Part shown: positions 13,338 to 38,599 of the stretch, piece after piece | How positions within the stretch are numbered: the first letter of the stretch is position 1 | How the letters are laid out: each line of letters starts with the position of its first letter | Source: a virus | Reading direction: 5' to 3' (one strand) | Length of the DNA: 41,342 bases | IMG/VR virus record: IMGVR_UViG_3300025000_000210 | Coordinates: 1-41,342 of that record | Made by a program: the position numbers and the translations under genes | The notes under the pieces: model-generated | Told to the model about the DNA's origin: nothing | Databases searched by the model: none | Seen by the model: the letters and a program-made list of their open reading frames with translations, nothing else

Positions 13338-15914
13338 TTATTTATTACCTTTATATCCATTTGCATTCTCTCCAACTAAATGTAACGATTGCCACTTACC
13401 TTGGCATTCTCTAGAACACACTACTGACTCAGATTGAGATGGAACTGCCTGATAATCTATTCCACAAATTTCACATACTTTGTCAATCTTAGTAGATACT
13501 CTATTTTCCTTCATCCACTTATCAGAACATTCATGAGAGCAGAAATGATTTTTTGATTTATCATATTGACTTTGTGTTCTGCTTATTTCCTTTCCACAAC
13601 ATTCACAATTTAATTTAATTCTATCTCTTTTGGATAATTGACTGCATTCTGGAGAGCAAAATTTATCCTTGCCACTTATAATTCTGTTCATGGGTAAAGT
13701 GAATTCTTCACCGCATTGTAAACATATTTTCTGTGCTCTTAATGTAGTAACACAACCTATTAATTTCATATATTCACATATATCCTTTAATGGTATATTT
13801 AATATCTCCTCCAATTCATTTAAATACTCAATCCTCTTATATAGAACATTATTTAAAATTATATCTGCTATTTCTTCTGTCCATATTTCAGAATACAACA
13901 TATCATGAGTAGTTTTATATGTACAAACTTTGCACAAACCATTCTTATGAGGTATATTATTACCACAAACATTGCATAGTTGTTTTGATTTTGATCTCTT
14001 TGCTCCATAATAAGCTGTATTACATTTATTTGAACAAAAATGATGACCTACTCTATCATACTGTGTTAACATACAAGATGTTTCCGTGCCACAATATTCA
14101 CAATTATATGTAATATGTTTTTCTGGTTGATATGTACTTCTAGCCTCCCTGACAGACAGATCGATTATCTTATTTAGGTCTTCAATATCATAGTCCATAT
14201 ATGGAATTTCAATATTTTCGTTTATTGTTAAAACGCCATCATTTAGATGATAATTAAAACTATGATAATTATCTAATACACCACTATTGTCTATGTATAA
14301 TGTTGTCAGTTCTCTACATAATTCTCTATCATTATTTATATCATATTCCCAAAGATACAATATATCTATATCATCATAATACTTTTTAATATATGTTTTC
14401 TTTGCTTTATCTTTACTAATACCAGTTGCTTGAGAAAGATAATTTATTTTATCAAATATTCGATGATCCGTATGCCAAAAACTCCCCATTACTTCAATCA
14501 TCAGATTAGATTTATTCAAATAATTATCAATGGCATAATATTTACAATTATACTCATTTTCATTTTCTACGTTTAACTCCTTCAATATGTCATTAACTAT
14601 CAATTGAGGTTTTGTATCAGTGTGAGAAAACACGCCATCTGACAACCTATTAACCATTTCTATTCTCATAAATTCTTTCCACTCAGGAGTTTGAGAAAAC
14701 ACATTAGTATAATGTGCGCGAGCACAATCTTTACTGCAAAAATGATTTTTAGACCTATTGTAACTATTCTCAGTTTCATCAAACTCTGTTTTACACCAAT
14801 CACATGTTACTTTTAATCTTTCAACCCATTTAGCATTGTTTTCTCCTGTAAAATAGTCACCTACGCATTTATTGCTACAAAATCTCCTATCTTTTGCTTC
14901 GCATTCTCTTACTTCGTACTCAGTCCCACAATTCTCACAAATTTTAACTACTAAATCTTTTGTTCTTTCTATAGCAAGATATTTAGAAGAACATTCATGG
15001 CAACAAAAGTAGTTTTCTTGTCCTTTTCTTGGAGTTTTATTAAATTTACCACCACACCATTTACATAACATTTCTATTTCTTCCGATTGTCCTATATCAT
15101 AGCATTCTTTACTGCAATAATGATCAACATTATATTCCATCTGAGAAAATATTCTAAATACGTCTATTCCACAAATAGGACATTTGAATTCTAATTTTAT
15201 TGATTTTCCCCCAATATTAATCAACTTAATAAAAGGAATCAAAAAATCTAATTCTATATTTATTAATAAGGATAATTTATTTATTGAATCTACTTTATTA
15301 TTTAATATATTATCAAAGATTATATTAACAATATCTTCTGTAAAAATATCATCATAAATTATATCTCTTTTAGATAAAGCGTCACATACTTTACAAGTAG
15401 TTTTGTATTTTGTTTCAGTATCTTTACTAAACTCATCAAAATGTTTTTCTTGATTGCATTTTCCACACTTTTGATGATGCTCTTTACATCCATAAGAATT
15501 GCTTTGAAAAATGTCGTGACATTCTTGACCACAGAAATAATTAGTTCTTTTAAGATATTCAGAAATTTTATAAGTAGCAGGTTTATAGCATACATCACAT
15601 TCTTTATTTACTGGTAATTTTATATTTCTAATATTTAATAATTGTATTGCTAAAAGTATTTCTCTTAATGGTTTATTTAATATAGTTTCAAATTCATTCA
15701 TAAATTTTACTTTTTCATTTAATATATTGTCTAGGATAATCATATTTTCCTCTTTGGATAATTCATTTATGGTGTTCAAATCTTCATGTTTACTAGACCA
15801 TACACAGATTTTACATGTTGTCTTTTCTGTATGTTTATAATACTCACCAACTGGTTTCTCCTTGCCACAAACTTTACAAACCTTTGTCTCAACACTTGTC
15901 TTAACATTTTCCAT
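13338..15914 (-). CDS. Giant zinc-finger homing-endonuclease-like protein
   Basis: 858 aa from ATG 15914 (MENVKTSVETK); the frame is open for another 70 codons upstream, but that part overlaps the structured leader and has no ribosome binding site. About a dozen Cys-rich modules of the type CxxC...F...(Y/H)FCSxxC occur along the chain, e.g. CDWCKTEF...NHFCSKDC and CENCGTEYEV...RRFCSNKC. A ~45-residue helical module (DNILNxKV...INELxxLLNIxLxxI) appears three times. Residues ~455-580 are a different fold, with LIVNDILKEL, LMIEVMGSFWHTDHR and DILYLWEYDIN, read as a PD-(D/E)XK/Vsr-like nuclease core. The layout (nuclease embedded between many small DNA-reading fingers) suggests a site-specific mobile endonuclease with a very long recognition site. 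It forms the left border of the early gene block, just upstream of the tail chaperone. Confidence 0.75.
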   Translation of the reverse strand: MENVKTSVETKVCKVCGKEKPVGEYYKHTEKTTCKICVWSSKHEDLNTINELSKEENMIILDNILNEKVKFMNEFETILNKPLREILLAIQLLNIRNIKLPVNKECDVCYKPATYKISEYLKRTNYFCGQECHDIFQSNSYGCKEHHQKCGKCNQEKHFDEFSKDTETKYKTTCKVCDALSKRDIIYDDIFTEDIVNIIFDNILNNKVDSINKLSLLINIELDFLIPFIKLINIGGKSIKLEFKCPICGIDVFRIFSQMEYNVDHYCSKECYDIGQSEEIEMLCKWCGGKFNKTPRKGQENYFCCHECSSKYLAIERTKDLVVKICENCGTEYEVRECEAKDRRFCSNKCVGDYFTGENNAKWVERLKVTCDWCKTEFDETENSYNRSKNHFCSKDCARAHYTNVFSQTPEWKEFMRIEMVNRLSDGVFSHTDTKPQLIVNDILKELNVENENEYNCKYYAIDNYLNKSNLMIEVMGSFWHTDHRIFDKINYLSQATGISKDKAKKTYIKKYYDDIDILYLWEYDINNDRELCRELTTLYIDNSGVLDNYHSFNYHLNDGVLTINENIEIPYMDYDIEDLNKIIDLSVREARSTYQPEKHITYNCEYCGTETSCMLTQYDRVGHHFCSNKCNTAYYGAKRSKSKQLCNVCGNNIPHKNGLCKVCTYKTTHDMLYSEIWTEEIADIILNNVLYKRIEYLNELEEILNIPLKDICEYMKLIGCVTTLRAQKICLQCGEEFTLPMNRIISGKDKFCSPECSQLSKRDRIKLNCECCGKEISRTQSQYDKSKNHFCSHECSDKWMKENRVSTKIDKVCEICGIDYQAVPSQSESVVCSRECQGKWQSLHLVGENANGYKGNK

Positions 15915-15972
15915 CAATAAACATCTCGCTTTCTTATTTTGATTTTGGTATACTCGCCCATAAAAATATAAA

Positions 15973-16038
15973 ACTAGCAAGAACGATGTGCGAGTTACAT
16001 CTAATAGTGGGTAATTACTTCCACTATCTCTTGCTAGT
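15973..16038 (-). promoter_or_regulatory. Three-way-junction RNA leader upstream of the 13338..15914 gene
   Basis: 10-bp perfect outer stem with two inner hairpins, same layout and same distance to the start codon (58 nt) as the element at 5941..6002. Both have GGAAGT at the 5' side of the first inner hairpin. Confidence 0.5.
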
Positions 16039-16203
16039 AAAACTATCGAACTTAAATTTTTACACACAAAAATAGAGAGTGAACCATAGGAGTAGATCAC
16101 TCTCTCAAAAATATTTAATAGCAAATCAAAGCGTCCAATAATTTGCTAAAACTATCAAATTAAATTTAGTATAGTTCAATATGAACTCCCTTTAAATCAC
16201 AAA

Positions 16204-26170: not shown

Positions 26171-27844
26171 TTAGCTATTACTTATAATTAATTGTTGGTT
26201 ATTGTATTTTTCTAGGATTTGTTTTGCTAGGAGTTGGTGTTGTGGCTTGATACTAATTGTCCCTTTAATTATTTTATTTAAATATAATAAATCATAATCA
26301 TTAATTTTATTTAAATAAATATGTAAAAATTTTAATTCCATAAGGATCTTACCACCATATTTTGACACTTTATCAAACCCACTGTATAATTCTTTACAAA
26401 TATCACATACTTCTTTATTTTCTTTAACTTTTGCCATTGATAAAAATTTACCATATTTATTATGAATTTTAATTAAATAATCCAACAACCGTTCTTCTGA
26501 CCAATATCCATTGGGTTTGAAGTTTAACCTGTCTCTCATATTAAATTTTTCTGCCATTTTGCTAAAATTTCCAAATCTTTTGTAAACTTCTGTATACAAT
26601 TTACTATTTAATTTTTGCACATTTTTATCAGATGGGAAGTAAAATCCATCACTAGAATAACTCATAAATTCTTCTAGAATCTCATTATCTGTTCTATTTT
26701 TATATGTACTAGTATTTAATAATTTATTGTCTATATATTTGAATTTTAAATCCATATAAGGTTTGAATTTTTCACGGAGCATATTTTGTATTTCTTCATA
26801 TGATTTGTTGGCAAAATCTTTTGGATATAGACTAATGAGTTTGTAACTATATTTGTTATAAATGTTCATTTTTATATTGTGAGTCTTATCATATTCTCCT
26901 TTAAATTTACTTTCTCCATAACCTCCCCATGCTTCTATCCAAAGATAATTATTTTCAATATTATCATCAATAATAGTTCTAAAATCACAGTTAAATTTAC
27001 CATCTTCTAATGAAATAATTACATTTCTATCATATTTTATATTGGTATTATGTATTAAAAATTGTGCAATTATATATTCATAGGATGATGCGTTGTGATA
27101 ATTATTATCATCTAAAAGATTATTGTCTCTATCGTAATTTAATTTATTTTTTATTTCTTGCATGCCACCATGTTTTTTAATTACTAATGAACCAATTCTT
27201 AAACATTTTTGAATTTCTAATGAAGTTGGAAACCTACCATATTTATTAATAAGATCAATCATATCCTCTTTAAAAATATCAAAATCATCATACCATCCAT
27301 ACGGGATTCTACCAAAATCTTGAATTGAATAACCCAATTGCAATGCCATTGATGTAATATTTTCATCATGTTTTTGTAATCCATTTATTATAGAAGTCCC
27401 GTAACTGTTTTTATTCATTTCAGAGAATGTACCATATTGTTTATAGTATTTATTAAACTCTTTAATTAAATTATCTTTATCACACCAATATCCATGTCCA
27501 TTTTCATTTAACATGGTTTTATTTCTAACAATTTGCATAAGTTTTGTTTTTTCGCTTTTGCACTCGTCGCATGAATCAATATTGTTTTCTTTATATTTTT
27601 TTACCGAACGGTTATACATATCATAATGAGGATATATATCTTTTCCGCATAAGTCACATTTTACATGAACTTTTTCATGACTTCCAAGTGGTAAATCTTC
27701 TATCTTTACTATTATTTTACTATTTAATATGAATTTCTCTTTGCCTTTATCATTAATAGTTGTTGGTATTTTATATCCTAAATTCTTATAATATTTTACT
27801 GTGAAAGCTACGATTGTTATTTCAATTTCTTTTGTCATTAACAT
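26171..27844 (-). CDS. Homing-endonuclease-like protein with PD-(D/E)XK core and repeat arms
   Basis: 557 aa from ATG 27844 (9 nt after GGAG); ATG 27853 abuts the ribosome binding site. Residues ~45-95 hold one zinc ribbon (VKCDLCGKDI ... DSCDECKS). Residues ~245-345 are the nuclease core: SSYEYIIAQFLI, GKFNCDF, NYLWIEAWGG and YDKTHNIKMNIYNKYSYKLISL, with the D, the E of IEAWGG and the downstream K/H helix placed as in PD-(D/E)XK enzymes. On both sides are repeats of the form W(C/S/Y)...L...NKYGxF, e.g. LINKYGRFPTSLEI, YKQYGTFSEMNK, HNKYGKFLSMAKV and YKRFGNFSKMAEK, probably helical DNA-reading modules. It forms the right border of the early block, after the tube-like gene. Confidence 0.72.
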   Translation of the reverse strand: MLMTKEIEITIVAFTVKYYKNLGYKIPTTINDKGKEKFILNSKIIVKIEDLPLGSHEKVHVKCDLCGKDIYPHYDMYNRSVKKYKENNIDSCDECKSEKTKLMQIVRNKTMLNENGHGYWCDKDNLIKEFNKYYKQYGTFSEMNKNSYGTSIINGLQKHDENITSMALQLGYSIQDFGRIPYGWYDDFDIFKEDMIDLINKYGRFPTSLEIQKCLRIGSLVIKKHGGMQEIKNKLNYDRDNNLLDDNNYHNASSYEYIIAQFLIHNTNIKYDRNVIISLEDGKFNCDFRTIIDDNIENNYLWIEAWGGYGESKFKGEYDKTHNIKMNIYNKYSYKLISLYPKDFANKSYEEIQNMLREKFKPYMDLKFKYIDNKLLNTSTYKNRTDNEILEEFMSYSSDGFYFPSDKNVQKLNSKLYTEVYKRFGNFSKMAEKFNMRDRLNFKPNGYWSEERLLDYLIKIHNKYGKFLSMAKVKENKEVCDICKELYSGFDKVSKYGGKILMELKFLHIYLNKINDYDLLYLNKIIKGTISIKPQHQLLAKQILEKYNNQQLIISNS

Positions 27845-27884
27845 TTTCAACATCTCCTCTTTCTGATTTAAAGGAATAAATGGG

Positions 27885-30062: not shown

Positions 30063-30152
30063 CTAAAACAAACTCTTTACCTGAATCCTAAATCCACTAC
30101 TAACTACTGTTTCTCCAACATTCTTAACAAACACTAGATCATAAGCATCACT
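30063..30152 (-). pseudogene. Displaced 3'-end remnant of the neck/Ig gene
   Basis: Open frame without a start, reading SDAYDLVFVKNVGE then TVVSSGFRIQVKSLF and stop. The Ig-domain neck gene upstream of the endonuclease ends in SDDLSVFDEHLLQIKSLF. The shared SD...VF and the final Q(I/V)KSLF show this is an alternative or older ending of that gene, cut off by the endonuclease insertion. The last six codons of the endonuclease are read from this same DNA in another frame. Confidence 0.6.
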
Positions 30153-31450
30153 TCCTCTAATAGATTTAATTCTTTTGTAAGAATCTCTTCTATATTATCA
30201 AAATCCTGATACCATATTTCGAGAAAATTATATTTGTTTTGTTCTGCGTATTCTTTTTTTCGTCTATCATGTTCTACTTGTTTTTCAAAGTCTTTAATTG
30301 ATTTATGTATTCCTCTGACAAATCTTTCGTGCATTTCACCTTGATACTCAATTAAAAGATTTATTTTAGGAATATAAAAGTCATAAGATAATAAACCTCC
30401 ACCTAGACCAATCAGACCATCAAATGTTTTTTGTGGGATATAGTAAATTTCTTTATTCAATAATTTCTTACCAACTTCAATCTCACCTGTTGAACATTGG
30501 CATTCTGGACATCTAAAATCACGAATTGATGAAGAAGATATTAGTCTATAATAATCTTCATGTTTTTCATCTGGACATTTCCACCAAACATATTGATGAC
30601 TCATAGGAGCATATTCATATGGAGAGTTTTCATTTTTATCTGACCAAAATTTAAATACATCTGGGTATATTGTTCCAAGAGAATCTAATTTATGAATTTT
30701 ACCATTACGATTATTACAATAAGGACATCTGCTACTATTAGTAAAATTATCTGGTGATACTTCATAACTTTCATGATAATATTTTTCTTGACATTTTATA
30801 AATATTTTATGTTTATTAGAACATTTATCGATATCCCAAGGGGAAACTATATTCTTTTCATAATCCCAATATTTATCAAGAAAATCTTCACCTAAATTAT
30901 CTATACCCCATTGTGCAATAGAATTACAAGCATTACAATCCATTGATCCATTTTGACCACTAGTAAAACTTTTTATATTTTTTAATTCGCTATTGTGTAA
31001 GTTTCTTAGACATTTAAAATAATATCTTTTTTGAGTTCCAAAACTTATTTCACTAGGTTTGCAATTGTTTAATTCATAATCCCACCGATCTAATATATCC
31101 TGACGATTATTTTCGATACACCATTGTTTAAAAGATATACTATTTTTCAATTTTGATTTTTGTATATTTACTCCACCATATAATTTTTTAGCACATTCAT
31201 TACAATAATATTTATTATCTTTATGAACATTAGTTAAATAATTCACCCATGTCATAGGTTTTAAATATGGATTCTTACAATTACCACAATCACATTTAAC
31301 ATTTACTAAAACATGACTACTATTACTTAAATCTTTAATATTAACTTCAAGTTCATCTTTATATTTTGTAAAAACATATCCTCTTTCTTCATACCTTATT
31401 TTATTATTGTGCATCCATTTTGTCATTGCTGTTTTACTAATTAATCCCAT
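30134..31450 (-). CDS. Homing-endonuclease-like protein, paralogue of 4733..5881
   Basis: 438 aa from ATG 31450 (MGLISKTAMTKW), well placed after AAGGAGG; the frame is open further upstream into a hairpin. It contains five Cys-rich zinc-ribbon units (CDCGNCKNP...YYCNECAK; ...FKCLRNLHNSE...CNAC; FIKCQEKYYHES...CPYC; WWKCPDEKHEDY...CPEC). The C-terminal ~100 residues repeat the nuclease of 4733..5881: YYIPQKTFDGLIGLG, SYDFYIPKINLLIEYQG and VEHDRRKKEYAEQNKYNFLE. The stop codon lies inside the displaced 3' remnant of the neck gene. The gene therefore sits at the 3' end of its host gene and carries with it a substitute ending. Confidence 0.8.
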   Translation of the reverse strand: MGLISKTAMTKWMHNNKIRYEERGYVFTKYKDELEVNIKDLSNSSHVLVNVKCDCGNCKNPYLKPMTWVNYLTNVHKDNKYYCNECAKKLYGGVNIQKSKLKNSISFKQWCIENNRQDILDRWDYELNNCKPSEISFGTQKRYYFKCLRNLHNSELKNIKSFTSGQNGSMDCNACNSIAQWGIDNLGEDFLDKYWDYEKNIVSPWDIDKCSNKHKIFIKCQEKYYHESYEVSPDNFTNSSRCPYCNNRNGKIHKLDSLGTIYPDVFKFWSDKNENSPYEYAPMSHQYVWWKCPDEKHEDYYRLISSSSIRDFRCPECQCSTGEIEVGKKLLNKEIYYIPQKTFDGLIGLGGGLLSYDFYIPKINLLIEYQGEMHERFVRGIHKSIKDFEKQVEHDRRKKEYAEQNKYNFLEIWYQDFDNIEEILTKELNLLEEVMLMI

Positions 31451-31489
31451 TTGATCCTCCTTATTTCTACTTTTAAACATAGAAAAAGA

Positions 31490-31524
31490 AGGATAGCGGT
31501 GTGTCTCACGACATGACATATCCT
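31490..31524 (-). terminator. Nested hairpin after the Ig-domain neck gene
   Basis: Outer AGGATA / TATCCT and inner TGTC / GACA stems with TCTTTTTCT after it on the minus strand; 19 nt after the stop and 39 nt before the endonuclease ATG. Confidence 0.55.
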
Positions 31525-31542
31525 CCAAAAATATTAATTTAA

Positions 31543-35458: not shown

Positions 35459-37090
35459 TTATATTGCTACTTGAATTTCTATAATATCAGTTGATTTGAT
35501 TCTTCTTAGTTCGCCAAAATCATAATCAAATTCACCTTGAGAATTAATTATTTTTGAATTGTCAATGTCGAATTTAATATAATGATGATTTTGATTGAGG
35601 TATGTACGTGCGTATAATAGAATTTCTAGAAGTTTTTGGTCTGATGGGATTAGGTCATCTTTTTCACTAATGATTCTAATTTCTTTCCAACCAGAACGTA
35701 GTAACCCATAGGTTCTATTTCTTTCTCTTTTTATGAATTCTTTTTCTGTAAATGTTCCAAGTGTTACACTCATTCTATGCCCAGAACCATCATATTCTAG
35801 ATAAATCATTTCATCTGGAAATGCTACATCAAGAGAAGATCCTTTAAATGGGTAATTGAGTTTTCCTCCTATAAGATTGTGTATGTATTTTTGTTGCCTA
35901 CTACATCTTGCAGTTCCATTTTTATATAAAGATTGCCTATTTCTTTCTTTTATTTCTGGATTTTGCATAGGATACTCTACTCCATTATTTTTGAGATTGG
36001 TATCTTTAACTCTCTGTCTTAAGCAACTTCTACACCTCTCACCACCTTTAAAGTGAGCTAAAGAAATAAAAGATGGTTTATTATTTCCGCAAGAACATTT
36101 ATAACTTAATTTATTGTCATCATCTGGAGTAGTATAATATTCTTGCTCGGAAGTTAATAATATACAATTCTCAATTTTAAATAAATCATATACTTCGTTA
36201 TAAGGTATTTTATTTAATTTTTTAAAATTAATTAATGCACAATCATCACATTTGTCTTTTGCACCAATTTTCCTTGAAAACATCTTGTATGTTGTTTCAA
36301 ATGGTTTACCACAATTACATTTGATTTCCAAAAGAGAATTAGAATTTTCATAATTTTCAATAGTAGTTAATAATTCGCAACCATTGATTGCTATAGTATT
36401 TTTAACTTCTATATATGGTTTACTCAGTTTTTCTCCTCTTGCTTTATTGCCACAATCATCACAATGTTGCTTTTTAGATTGTTCTCCTTTAAATTGCTTA
36501 AAAGATGTAGTAAAAGGGTTTTCACATTTGCATTTAATATCAATATCTAGATGTGTGTTTACATATTCATCTTCAGTTGTTATTAACTCACAACCACTAT
36601 TACTTTCAATCTCTATATAATGCTTTATATCTTTATAAGGTATTTTATGTTTTTCTCCTGATAATTTATTGCTACACTCATTACATGTTCTTTGATTACA
36701 ACTATAAAACTTATTCCAACTTTTCTTAAATGGCCTTCCACAACCACATTCTAAATCTAATAAATCAGTTGCAATAGTATATTCTGATAATAATTTGCAA
36801 TTTGATTGAGATTCTACTTCTATGAAATATTTAACTTCTTCAGTAGTCCTTCTTTCTAATCCAGAGCATTTATTACATTGCTTTTTAGAATATTTGAAAT
36901 TATCATAAGATTTCTCAATATCATTTCCACATTTACATTTCATGAATATTACTACATGTGAGTTATTTTTATTTTGATCTATTTTTGCTTGATAAAATTC
37001 TTCTTCTGTGGTTTTTAGACTACAACCATTTCCTGTTTCTTCGCTATTTATATAGTTTTTAATGATTTGATATGTAAGTTTTGTTGCCAA
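35459..37090 (-). CDS. Homing-endonuclease-like protein with zinc-ribbon repeats and Vsr-like nuclease, next to the capsid intron
   Basis: 543 aa from TTG 37090 (8 nt after GGAGG). Residues ~15-370 consist of six repeats of ~55-60 residues, each with 'CxLxxTxxEYxxxxxxLxIKCxCGxxFxxS...F...CxxC' and a following basic link (e.g. IKCKCENPFTTSFKQFKG ... HCDDCGNKARGEKL). Residues ~385-500 are the nuclease: MQNPEIKERNRQSLYKNG, CSRQQKYIHNLIGG, SLDVAFPDEMIYLEYDGSGH and FIKRERNRTYGLLRSGWKEIRII, with Asp, Glu and His placed as in Vsr/EDxHD homing endonucleases such as I-Bth0305I. It begins 138 nt after the second capsid exon and is not inside the group I intron at 37294..37549, which encodes no protein of its own. 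It is the natural candidate for the enzyme that cleaves intron-less capsid genes. Confidence 0.8.
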   Translation of the reverse strand: MATKLTYQIIKNYINSEETGNGCSLKTTEEEFYQAKIDQNKNNSHVVIFMKCKCGNDIEKSYDNFKYSKKQCNKCSGLERRTTEEVKYFIEVESQSNCKLLSEYTIATDLLDLECGCGRPFKKSWNKFYSCNQRTCNECSNKLSGEKHKIPYKDIKHYIEIESNSGCELITTEDEYVNTHLDIDIKCKCENPFTTSFKQFKGEQSKKQHCDDCGNKARGEKLSKPYIEVKNTIAINGCELLTTIENYENSNSLLEIKCNCGKPFETTYKMFSRKIGAKDKCDDCALINFKKLNKIPYNEVYDLFKIENCILLTSEQEYYTTPDDDNKLSYKCSCGNNKPSFISLAHFKGGERCRSCLRQRVKDTNLKNNGVEYPMQNPEIKERNRQSLYKNGTARCSRQQKYIHNLIGGKLNYPFKGSSLDVAFPDEMIYLEYDGSGHRMSVTLGTFTEKEFIKRERNRTYGLLRSGWKEIRIISEKDDLIPSDQKLLEILLYARTYLNQNHHYIKFDIDNSKIINSQGEFDYDFGELRRIKSTDIIEIQVAI

Positions 37091-37138
37091 TTTTAATTCC
37101 TCCTTAGAATCACTCCCTAATTTTTTATAAAATAAAAG

Positions 37139-37164
37139 AAGAGTGGTCTAGGAAAACCACTCTT
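37139..37164 (-). terminator. Terminator after the capsid gene
   Basis: Perfect AAGAGTGGT / ACCACTCTT stem, 8-nt loop, T-rich tail on the minus strand, 63 nt after the second-exon stop codon. Confidence 0.85.
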
Positions 37165-37227
37165 ATCAGTAATTAATTAGGCTTGCAATCTTAATTAATA
37201 CCTACCTTTTATAAAATTTGTTTAATA

Positions 37228-38599
37228 TTACTCAGCTAAAGCAGAGTCATAAATATATCCAACCATTGGAATATATTCAGGAACCAAATAATTCAATTTT
37301 GTTACCCTACAAGCTTTTTATCCTGTAGTTCTTATACTTTTTCTTCGTATAAGTTCAGCATATCTTTTCACCTTCAAGAAAAACTTGATAAGGTGTCGCG
37401 GACTCGTGGGAAGATTATATTTATTCACTTCCTATGCGTTGCCCCTGACTAATCTTAAATTAGCCTTCGGTTCTGATTCCCATTTCAGGGTTCCAGCTTA
37501 ATACCGCGATTTTTACATTAAACATTTCTGTCTAAGTCGGCAATTATTCACCGAATTCCCAATCATAACGAATGGCACGACTCCTAGAATTTAGGTCTGT
37601 GCCTTCCATGGAAGTTAAATTACCTTTAAGACCTATTTGTAAAGGACTCATAATACCTTGTGGCAAAAACCATAAATCAGTTGTAGGTAATTGAGGAGCA
37701 TAAAAATCTCCAGCAGTATTAAGATCGATCATATTGTAAGAATTTGGCAATTCAACTACTATACTTCCTTTATACACTTTAATAAGACCAGTTTTCATTA
37801 CTTCTTCCATTACGGATTCAGGGAATCTAAATTCTGTGCCAGCAGCCACAACACTAAAATTAGCAAGATCCCCAAGTTTATTTACTGCACTGTAATCTCC
37901 CATAATTGTTACAGAAGTACCAAAACGTTTTGCTAATTTTCTTGTATTTTCAACATTAGTCTTAGTAATCCCCTCGCTGTAGTTCTTTAAAGTGGTAGCA
38001 GCAGTAATTCCTGCTCTCAGAGCATTGATGTGAGAGAGAACCATTTGATTTGTTAAATCTGTAACGACTTGTTCATTTGCCATTGCAAATCCATCTGTAG
38101 CTCCAGATTGTAACTCTCTATAATCAACTAGCACTCCACCAGTAGAAGTTTGAGTGGTCATAATACCAGTTCTTTTCTTAACAGTTGGGAATACAAAAGA
38201 ACCAGAAGATGCTTGGATTCTTGATTTTTGACCTTGCATCTCATATACTTCATAATGCATTTCTTCATTAAATCCAACTTTTGTAACTGTCCCCATTGCA
38301 CTATTGATTGCCAGTCTTTTTTCAAGAGGTTGTTGAATAGTAATAGTCCGAATTGCGTTCAATTCTGTTGTAGCTTGAGAATTACCATCATTAGCAGCAG
38401 TTGCTAACATCTTAATCTTATCCATTACCGTATCAACTTTTTTACCATACTTAGATACATCTTTACCATATAAAATATTGGTGAAAATCTCCACATTCTC
38501 GTTTTTAACAATATTCGGTAACATATTCTTAACGTTTTTATTAATTTCCACTTGTTCTGCATTTGCTTGAAAATTTGTAAAATCTATTCCAAAACTCAT
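37228..38599 (-). CDS. Major capsid protein, split by a group I intron (exons 38599..37550 and 37293..37228)
   Basis: Exon 1 gives 350 codons, exon 2 gives NYLVPEYIPMVGYIYDSALA plus E and a stop, for 371 aa after splicing. Without splicing, translation stops two codons into the intron (EFG-E-stop). HK97-fold features: an N-terminal helical part, RIQASSGSFVFPTVKKR, then VVTDLTNQMVLSHINALRAG, SVTIMGDYSAVNKLGD and IKVYKGSIVVELPNSYN, ending with the exon junction RYDWEFG-NYLVPEYIP. Related capsid proteins of Firmicute siphophages end with a (V)VPEYIPxxGxI motif, exactly what exon 2 supplies. ATG 38599 follows AAGAGG. Downstream: terminator, then the 35459..37090 endonuclease gene. Confidence 0.85.
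37294..37549 (-). ncRNA. Group I intron (IA-type) in the major capsid gene
   Basis: 256 nt, no ORF. P1: exon TCGGT (37554..37550) pairs with GCCGA (37541..37537), including the required U-G at the 5' splice site. P10: intron AATT (37545..37542) with exon 2 AATT. P3: TCGCGG with CCGCGA. P4: CTG/CAG, P5: CCC/GGG, P6 stem CTAAT/ATTAG. P7: CGCATA with TATGC(T)G; this replaces the common CGACTA/TAGTC pair by base-paired substitution. P7.1: GGAAG/CTTCC, which marks subgroup IA. P8: CACCTT/AAGGTG plus TCAAG/CTTGA. P9: CTTATAC/GTATAAG, P9.1: CTACA/TGTAG. The intron ends GGGTAACAAAATTG, with the last G at 37294. All standard elements are in the right order. Confidence 0.92.

Follow-up and report, generated by a model that had tools for sequence, protein, structure and literature searches.

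A predicted ORF-less group I intron near the end of the major capsid gene of an SPbeta-related phage

In an SPbeta-related phage, the gene for the major capsid protein very probably contains an ORF-less, IA-like group I intron, the removal of which would restore the conserved C terminus of the capsid protein. The gene lies on the minus strand of IMG/VR record IMGVR_UViG_3300025000_000210, analysed here over all 41,342 nucleotides (the window), and the 256-nt intron is inserted after codon 350 of a gene predicted to encode an HK97-fold protein. Left unspliced, the ORF at 37544-38599 encodes 351 aa, of which the last (E) is non-native, whereas the CDS joined without 37549-37294 encodes 371 aa and ends in ...YDWEFG-NYLVPEYIPMVGYIYDSALAE. 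The splice context on the minus strand reads ...GAA UUC GGU|GAAUAAUUGCCGACUUAG ... GGUAACAAAAUUG|AAU UAU UUG GUU CCU GAA..., with the 5' splice site at U37550|G37549. No internal ORF longer than 38 aa is present within the intron in the ORF list. The gene is laid out as follows.

37550-38599, minus strand: exon 1, 350 codons, part of ORF 37544-38599; homologues are about 73-84% identical
37544-37546, minus strand: UAA stop, in frame, which closes the unspliced ORF after a single intron codon and sits within the P1 loop, read from the sequence
37294-37549, minus strand: group I intron, 256 nt, based on held-out covariance model matches, covariation and the ORF list
37228-37293, minus strand: exon 2, 66 nt, NYLVPEYIPMVGYIYDSALAE plus stop (21 codons and a stop), present as an in-frame fusion in all uninterrupted homologues

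Uninterrupted relatives define the exon junction

Close homologues of the capsid protein were found on 23 IMG/VR contigs, and a profile search returned 44. At least 18 close relatives lack an insert and read continuously across the predicted junction, two further assemblies (L001 and L002) carry the same intron with capsid-intron DNA identical to that of the window, and 11 contigs carry a different insert. The uninterrupted protein of L006 reads ...TATGATTGGGAATTTGGT|AATTATGTTGTGCCTGAA... where the joined window product reads ...TATGATTGGGAATTCGGT|AATTATTTGGTTCCTGAA..., and the L006 DNA at this point is GGT|AATTAT. Uninterrupted proteins of close relatives are 370-375 aa long, compared with 371 aa for the spliced window product. 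In a wider alignment whose uninterrupted members extend to ~30% identity and include SPbeta-group phages, all 36 uninterrupted homologues run beyond the junction, and two residues of the exon 2 segment, G366 and D370 in the numbering of the first sequence, are at least 90% conserved. No capsid relative was confirmed in genome contigs. Joining the exons restores a conserved host protein of 371 aa at the same junction at which uninterrupted relatives are continuous. The preliminary description had added a 21-codon second exon to the C terminus and had warned that the capsid protein would otherwise be 21 residues short with a false end; both points agree with these relatives, and routine annotation would call the gene 21 residues short with the wrong last residue.

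The intron has a complete group I core

The following elements were assigned, with percentages giving the proportion of paired bases across an alignment of 20 introns.

37537-37554, minus strand: P1, UCGGU (37554-37550, exon) with GCCGA (37541-37537), from the sequence, on a junction fixed independently by homology
37542-37545, minus strand: P10 5' strand AAUU, partner AAUU at 37293-37290 (start of exon 2), from the sequence
37518-37535, minus strand: P2, 37535-37530 with 37523-37518, 99% paired with compensatory changes
37504-37509, minus strand: P3 5' strand UCGCGG, 100% paired, 3-5 pair types per position
37396-37401, minus strand: P3 3' strand CCGCGA, from covariation
37473-37496, minus strand: P4, 37496-37493 with 37476-37473, 99% paired, enclosing P5, 95% paired
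37433-37437, minus strand: P7 5' strand GCAUA, 100% paired, one covarying pair
37358-37362, minus strand: P7 3' strand UAUGC, from covariation
37409-37432, minus strand: P7.1 hairpin, 37432-37428 with 37413-37409, 97% paired
37369-37395, minus strand: P8, 37395-37390 with 37374-37369, 93% paired
37331-37353, minus strand: P9, 37353-37347 with 37337-37331, 96% paired
37307-37328, minus strand: P9.1, 37328-37323 with 37312-37307, 97% paired
37294, minus strand: terminal G (omega G), from the sequence; the covariance model match stops at 37295

The 5-bp P1 places a U37550-G37541 wobble at the 5' splice site, exactly on the homology-defined junction, and both the terminal G37294 and a P10 with the 3' exon are present at the other end. 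A pseudoknot of P3 and P7 is a hallmark of group I introns; here this core forms together with P4-P6 and P8, and all of its helices pair in the window sequence. The folding z-score of the intron is -3.06. The well-paired P7.1 points to an IA-like subgroup.

Introns that match the 3' half occur in phages of Clostridioides, Bacillus, Staphylococcus and others, and most of these matches stop close to the 3' splice site. These sister introns lie within or between pieces of genes for RecD-like helicase, tape measure protein, large terminase and DNA polymerase. Two covariance models, one for each half, were trained on the introns of other phages, excluding the window and its copies. The 3' model matches 37441-37295 (137.9 bits, E = 4e-31), ending one base before the terminal G, and the 5' model matches 37545-37431 (63.4 bits, E = 1.4e-13). 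The two matches adjoin in the expected order and, for a search over 41 kb, lie well beyond chance expectation; elsewhere in the window the best E-values are 0.21 and 7.6.

The covariation alignment, which includes a small manual gap shift next to P3, shows two or more pair types at most helix positions. P6a is 90% paired, and P6 reaches 95% when shifted by one base from its initial register, which gave 55%. Controls with slid partners are mostly 20-60% paired, with a maximum of 71% for P7. P7, the guanosine-binding helix, is paired in 20/20 introns; its first two pairs are invariant and one of its five pairs varies (A-U in 17, G-C in 2 and U-A in 1). Covariation comes from introns at other insertion sites, the orthologous copies in L001 and L002 being identical and offering no variants. 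We note that the window both supplied the structure and is one of the aligned sequences used to test it, so the pairing percentages are not probabilities, and that the held-out models provide the independent test.

The covariance models, covariation and uninterrupted homologues uphold the reading in the preliminary description of a capsid gene split by an ORF-less, IA-type group I intron, including its splice coordinates (37550/37293) and the elements that it listed: the U-G pair in P1, the AAUU/AAUU P10, P3, P7, P7.1, P8, P9 and the terminal G. Its hand-folded structure was sound in these helices but omitted P2, P4, P5, P6/P6a and P9.1, which are also present, and the compensated change that it reported in P7 is real but modest.

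The Rfam group I model misses this intron family

A search with Rfam model RF00028, proposed in the preliminary description as a check, gave no match in the window stretch, either at the gathering threshold or at E ≤ 1. The same model found nothing in 15 sister-intron loci (among L027-L042), several of them in plainly split genes, and its score for T4 nrdB, 35.7 bits, fell below the cutoff of 50; nrdB makes the better control because the T4 td intron is only partial in the stretch tested. The null result was considered as an argument against a group I intron and rejected: since the sister introns and part of T4 are missed as well, the absence of a match is uninformative rather than counter-evidence and is a weakness of RF00028 for these introns. 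Models such as R1 and R2, by comparison, recover introns of this family where RF00028 fails. The Rfam group I model has been described as incomplete, with a warning that phage variants may escape models of group I introns (PMC11878797). Because RF00028 flags neither the window intron nor its sisters in Firmicutes phages, other structural genes have probably been annotated with similarly wrong ends.

Predicted splicing and alternative readings

Group I introns are excised by guanosine attack followed by attack of exon 1, with the exons aligned by P1 and P10. In the capsid pre-mRNA, the end of exon 1 (UCGGU) would pair with the guide GCCGA to form P1, with the U-G wobble at the splice site, and the first attack, after U37550, would come from a guanosine bound by P7. 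Exon 1, once released, would stay paired in P1 as P10 brings exon 2 into line; attack by exon 1 after the terminal G37294 would then join codon 350 to exon 2. The predicted product is the 371-aa capsid protein with its conserved C terminus; unspliced message would instead yield a 351-aa protein that ends early and is presumably useless. Ribosomes may be kept out of the ribozyme core by the UAA, which follows the first intron codon. On this reading of the sequence, a highly expressed gene would depend on efficient self-splicing.

The intron could be genuine in origin but dead for splicing, so that a 351-aa capsid protein is made or the contig represents a degraded variant. The open ORF does end cleanly at its UAA, yet this explanation is very improbable: no core helix is broken in the window sequence, where all of them pair; P1, P10 and the terminal G agree with the junction set by homology; exon 2 is a conserved, open reading frame; the intron-containing locus is unchanged in two other assemblies; and the C terminus that would be missing holds near-invariant positions. 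Partial splicing, with the 351- and 371-aa forms both made on purpose, is less probable still. A short product is possible in that the unspliced ORF extends only one residue beyond the junction, but no uninterrupted homologue ends there, exon 2 contributes a short helix and the last strand of the modelled fold as well as the final part of a long strand, and no sign of regulation was seen.

An insert of another kind (a group II intron, an IStron, an intergenic structured RNA or a chance fold), with exon 2 as a separate small ORF starting from TTG at 37296, would be consistent with that TTG just upstream of exon 2 and with the lack of an RF00028 match. This reading is largely refuted by the covariation of the pseudoknot; the held-out group I models and the exact junction also oppose it, the space is too small for a transposase, and exon 2 is fused to the capsid gene in homologues, leaving it with a negligible probability.

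The interrupted gene is predicted to encode an HK97-fold capsid protein

The host gene is identified as an HK97-fold major capsid gene by predicted fold and head-module synteny. Pfam gave no match for the protein, PHROGs assigned it to a family of unknown function (and five wider relatives to 'virion structural protein'), and a profile search against PDB sequences was negative; the fold search alone gave matches. The model was built with AlphaFold for the uninterrupted relative L072, which lies on the same contig as L006, from an alignment of 36 homologues (mean pLDDT 75, pTM 0.72); this alignment replaced one of 10 close homologues that gave an unusable model (pLDDT 33). The best Foldseek match of the L072 model in the PDB is the capsid protein of phage NF5 (E = 1.8e-11), with HK97 at 6.6e-8, and matches in BFVD are to capsid proteins (1.2e-16). 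TM-scores of these matches are moderate (mostly 0.35-0.6), as is common among distant HK97 relatives. Phage SPR encodes a homologue downstream of its portal gene and two intervening genes, both of which have counterparts in the window. The exon 2 segment is modelled with a pLDDT of ~80-90; because it is confidently predicted to be structured, translation without splicing would leave the capsid protein short of a structured region.

Neighbouring endonuclease gene and a second capsid-gene insert

A free-standing HNH-type endonuclease gene at 35459-37090 (PHROGs, E = 3e-28) starts 137 nt downstream of exon 2. Among L001-L023, an endonuclease-like ORF occupies the same slot in almost every relative whose downstream sequence extends far enough, with or without the intron; those of the intron-less loci L007 and L012 are 71% identical to the window gene, and other loci are more distant. 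Presence of the endonuclease gene does not track the intron. It is rather unlikely, though conceivable, that the 35459-37090 endonuclease mobilises the intron in trans by cutting intron-less capsid genes near the junction ('collaborative homing'), in which case the capsid gene end, the intron and the endonuclease gene would spread as one unit. The window contains further endonuclease-like ORFs at 13338-16124, 26171-27853 and 30134-31528.

The gap between the capsid and endonuclease genes folds at 37130-37212 into a three-way junction with a terminator-like hairpin at its end (z = -3.9). Several related loci fold similarly, and TTGACA/TATAAT-like boxes lie just upstream in L006, L007, L010, L012 and L022, an arrangement that would suit control of the endonuclease gene by a structured leader. 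When the capsid 3' region was searched for structured RNA, RNAalifold gave no consensus and Rfam nothing convincing.

The different insert found among the capsid relatives is ~375-381 nt long and interrupts the capsid gene at a point ~11 codons 5' of the window's insertion site (after ...DINLR).

L008:4020-4460, L011, L013-L016, L018, L020 and L092-L094: loci with the second insert

This insert has group I-like core elements, a weak R1 match (18 bits) and related DNA in 93 phage records. Its reading frame demands a splice after ...AAGGG|U, which would end the exon in G instead of the usual U and would be unusual. A capsid family with two different introns ~11 codons apart, together with free-standing endonuclease genes, would be a usable system for the study of intron spread among phages.

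Comparison with known introns

The preliminary description implied that a group I intron in a capsid gene was a surprise, but the literature already contains both capsid-gene group I introns (LittleE and Tuc2009) and phage introns that lack an ORF (PMC3706429). Given these precedents, novelty is low, and the window intron is a new example. In the Cluster J mycobacteriophage LittleE, RT-PCR and protein sequencing established that the major capsid gene contains a group I-like intron; as in the window, U ends exon 1, G ends the intron and the joined product matches intron-less relatives (PMC3706429). The LittleE intron differs in its length of 819 bp and in carrying a homing-endonuclease ORF on the opposite strand (PMC3706429). 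Its insertion point is close to the capsid processing site and not at the C-terminal end, the phage has a high-GC host, and the comparison with the window intron is one of description. The BAKA/Optimus tail-gene intron, shown by RT-PCR in BAKA, is likewise ORF-less and in a virion structural gene, and its 265 bp are close to the 256 nt of the window intron (PMC3706429), although it resides in a tail gene of mycobacteriophages. Lactococcal phage Tuc2009 has a group I intron in a capsid subunit gene according to the passage of PMC3706429 that cites it, and is likened to the window by description only.

The sister introns, by contrast, share the same core by both sequence and structure. Those in the phiCDIF1296T tape measure region, the PJN02 RecD-like helicase gene and the PMBT8 large terminase gene are among them, with 71-83% identity over ~85-150 nt of the 3' half, and several are also ORF-less; they differ in host gene and insertion site, and many carry an endonuclease gene in a loop. 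The group IA intron of T4 td is more distant in sequence and carries the I-TevI gene, but its 3' half is matched by the sister-trained 3' model R1 (29.7 bits, E = 1e-4).
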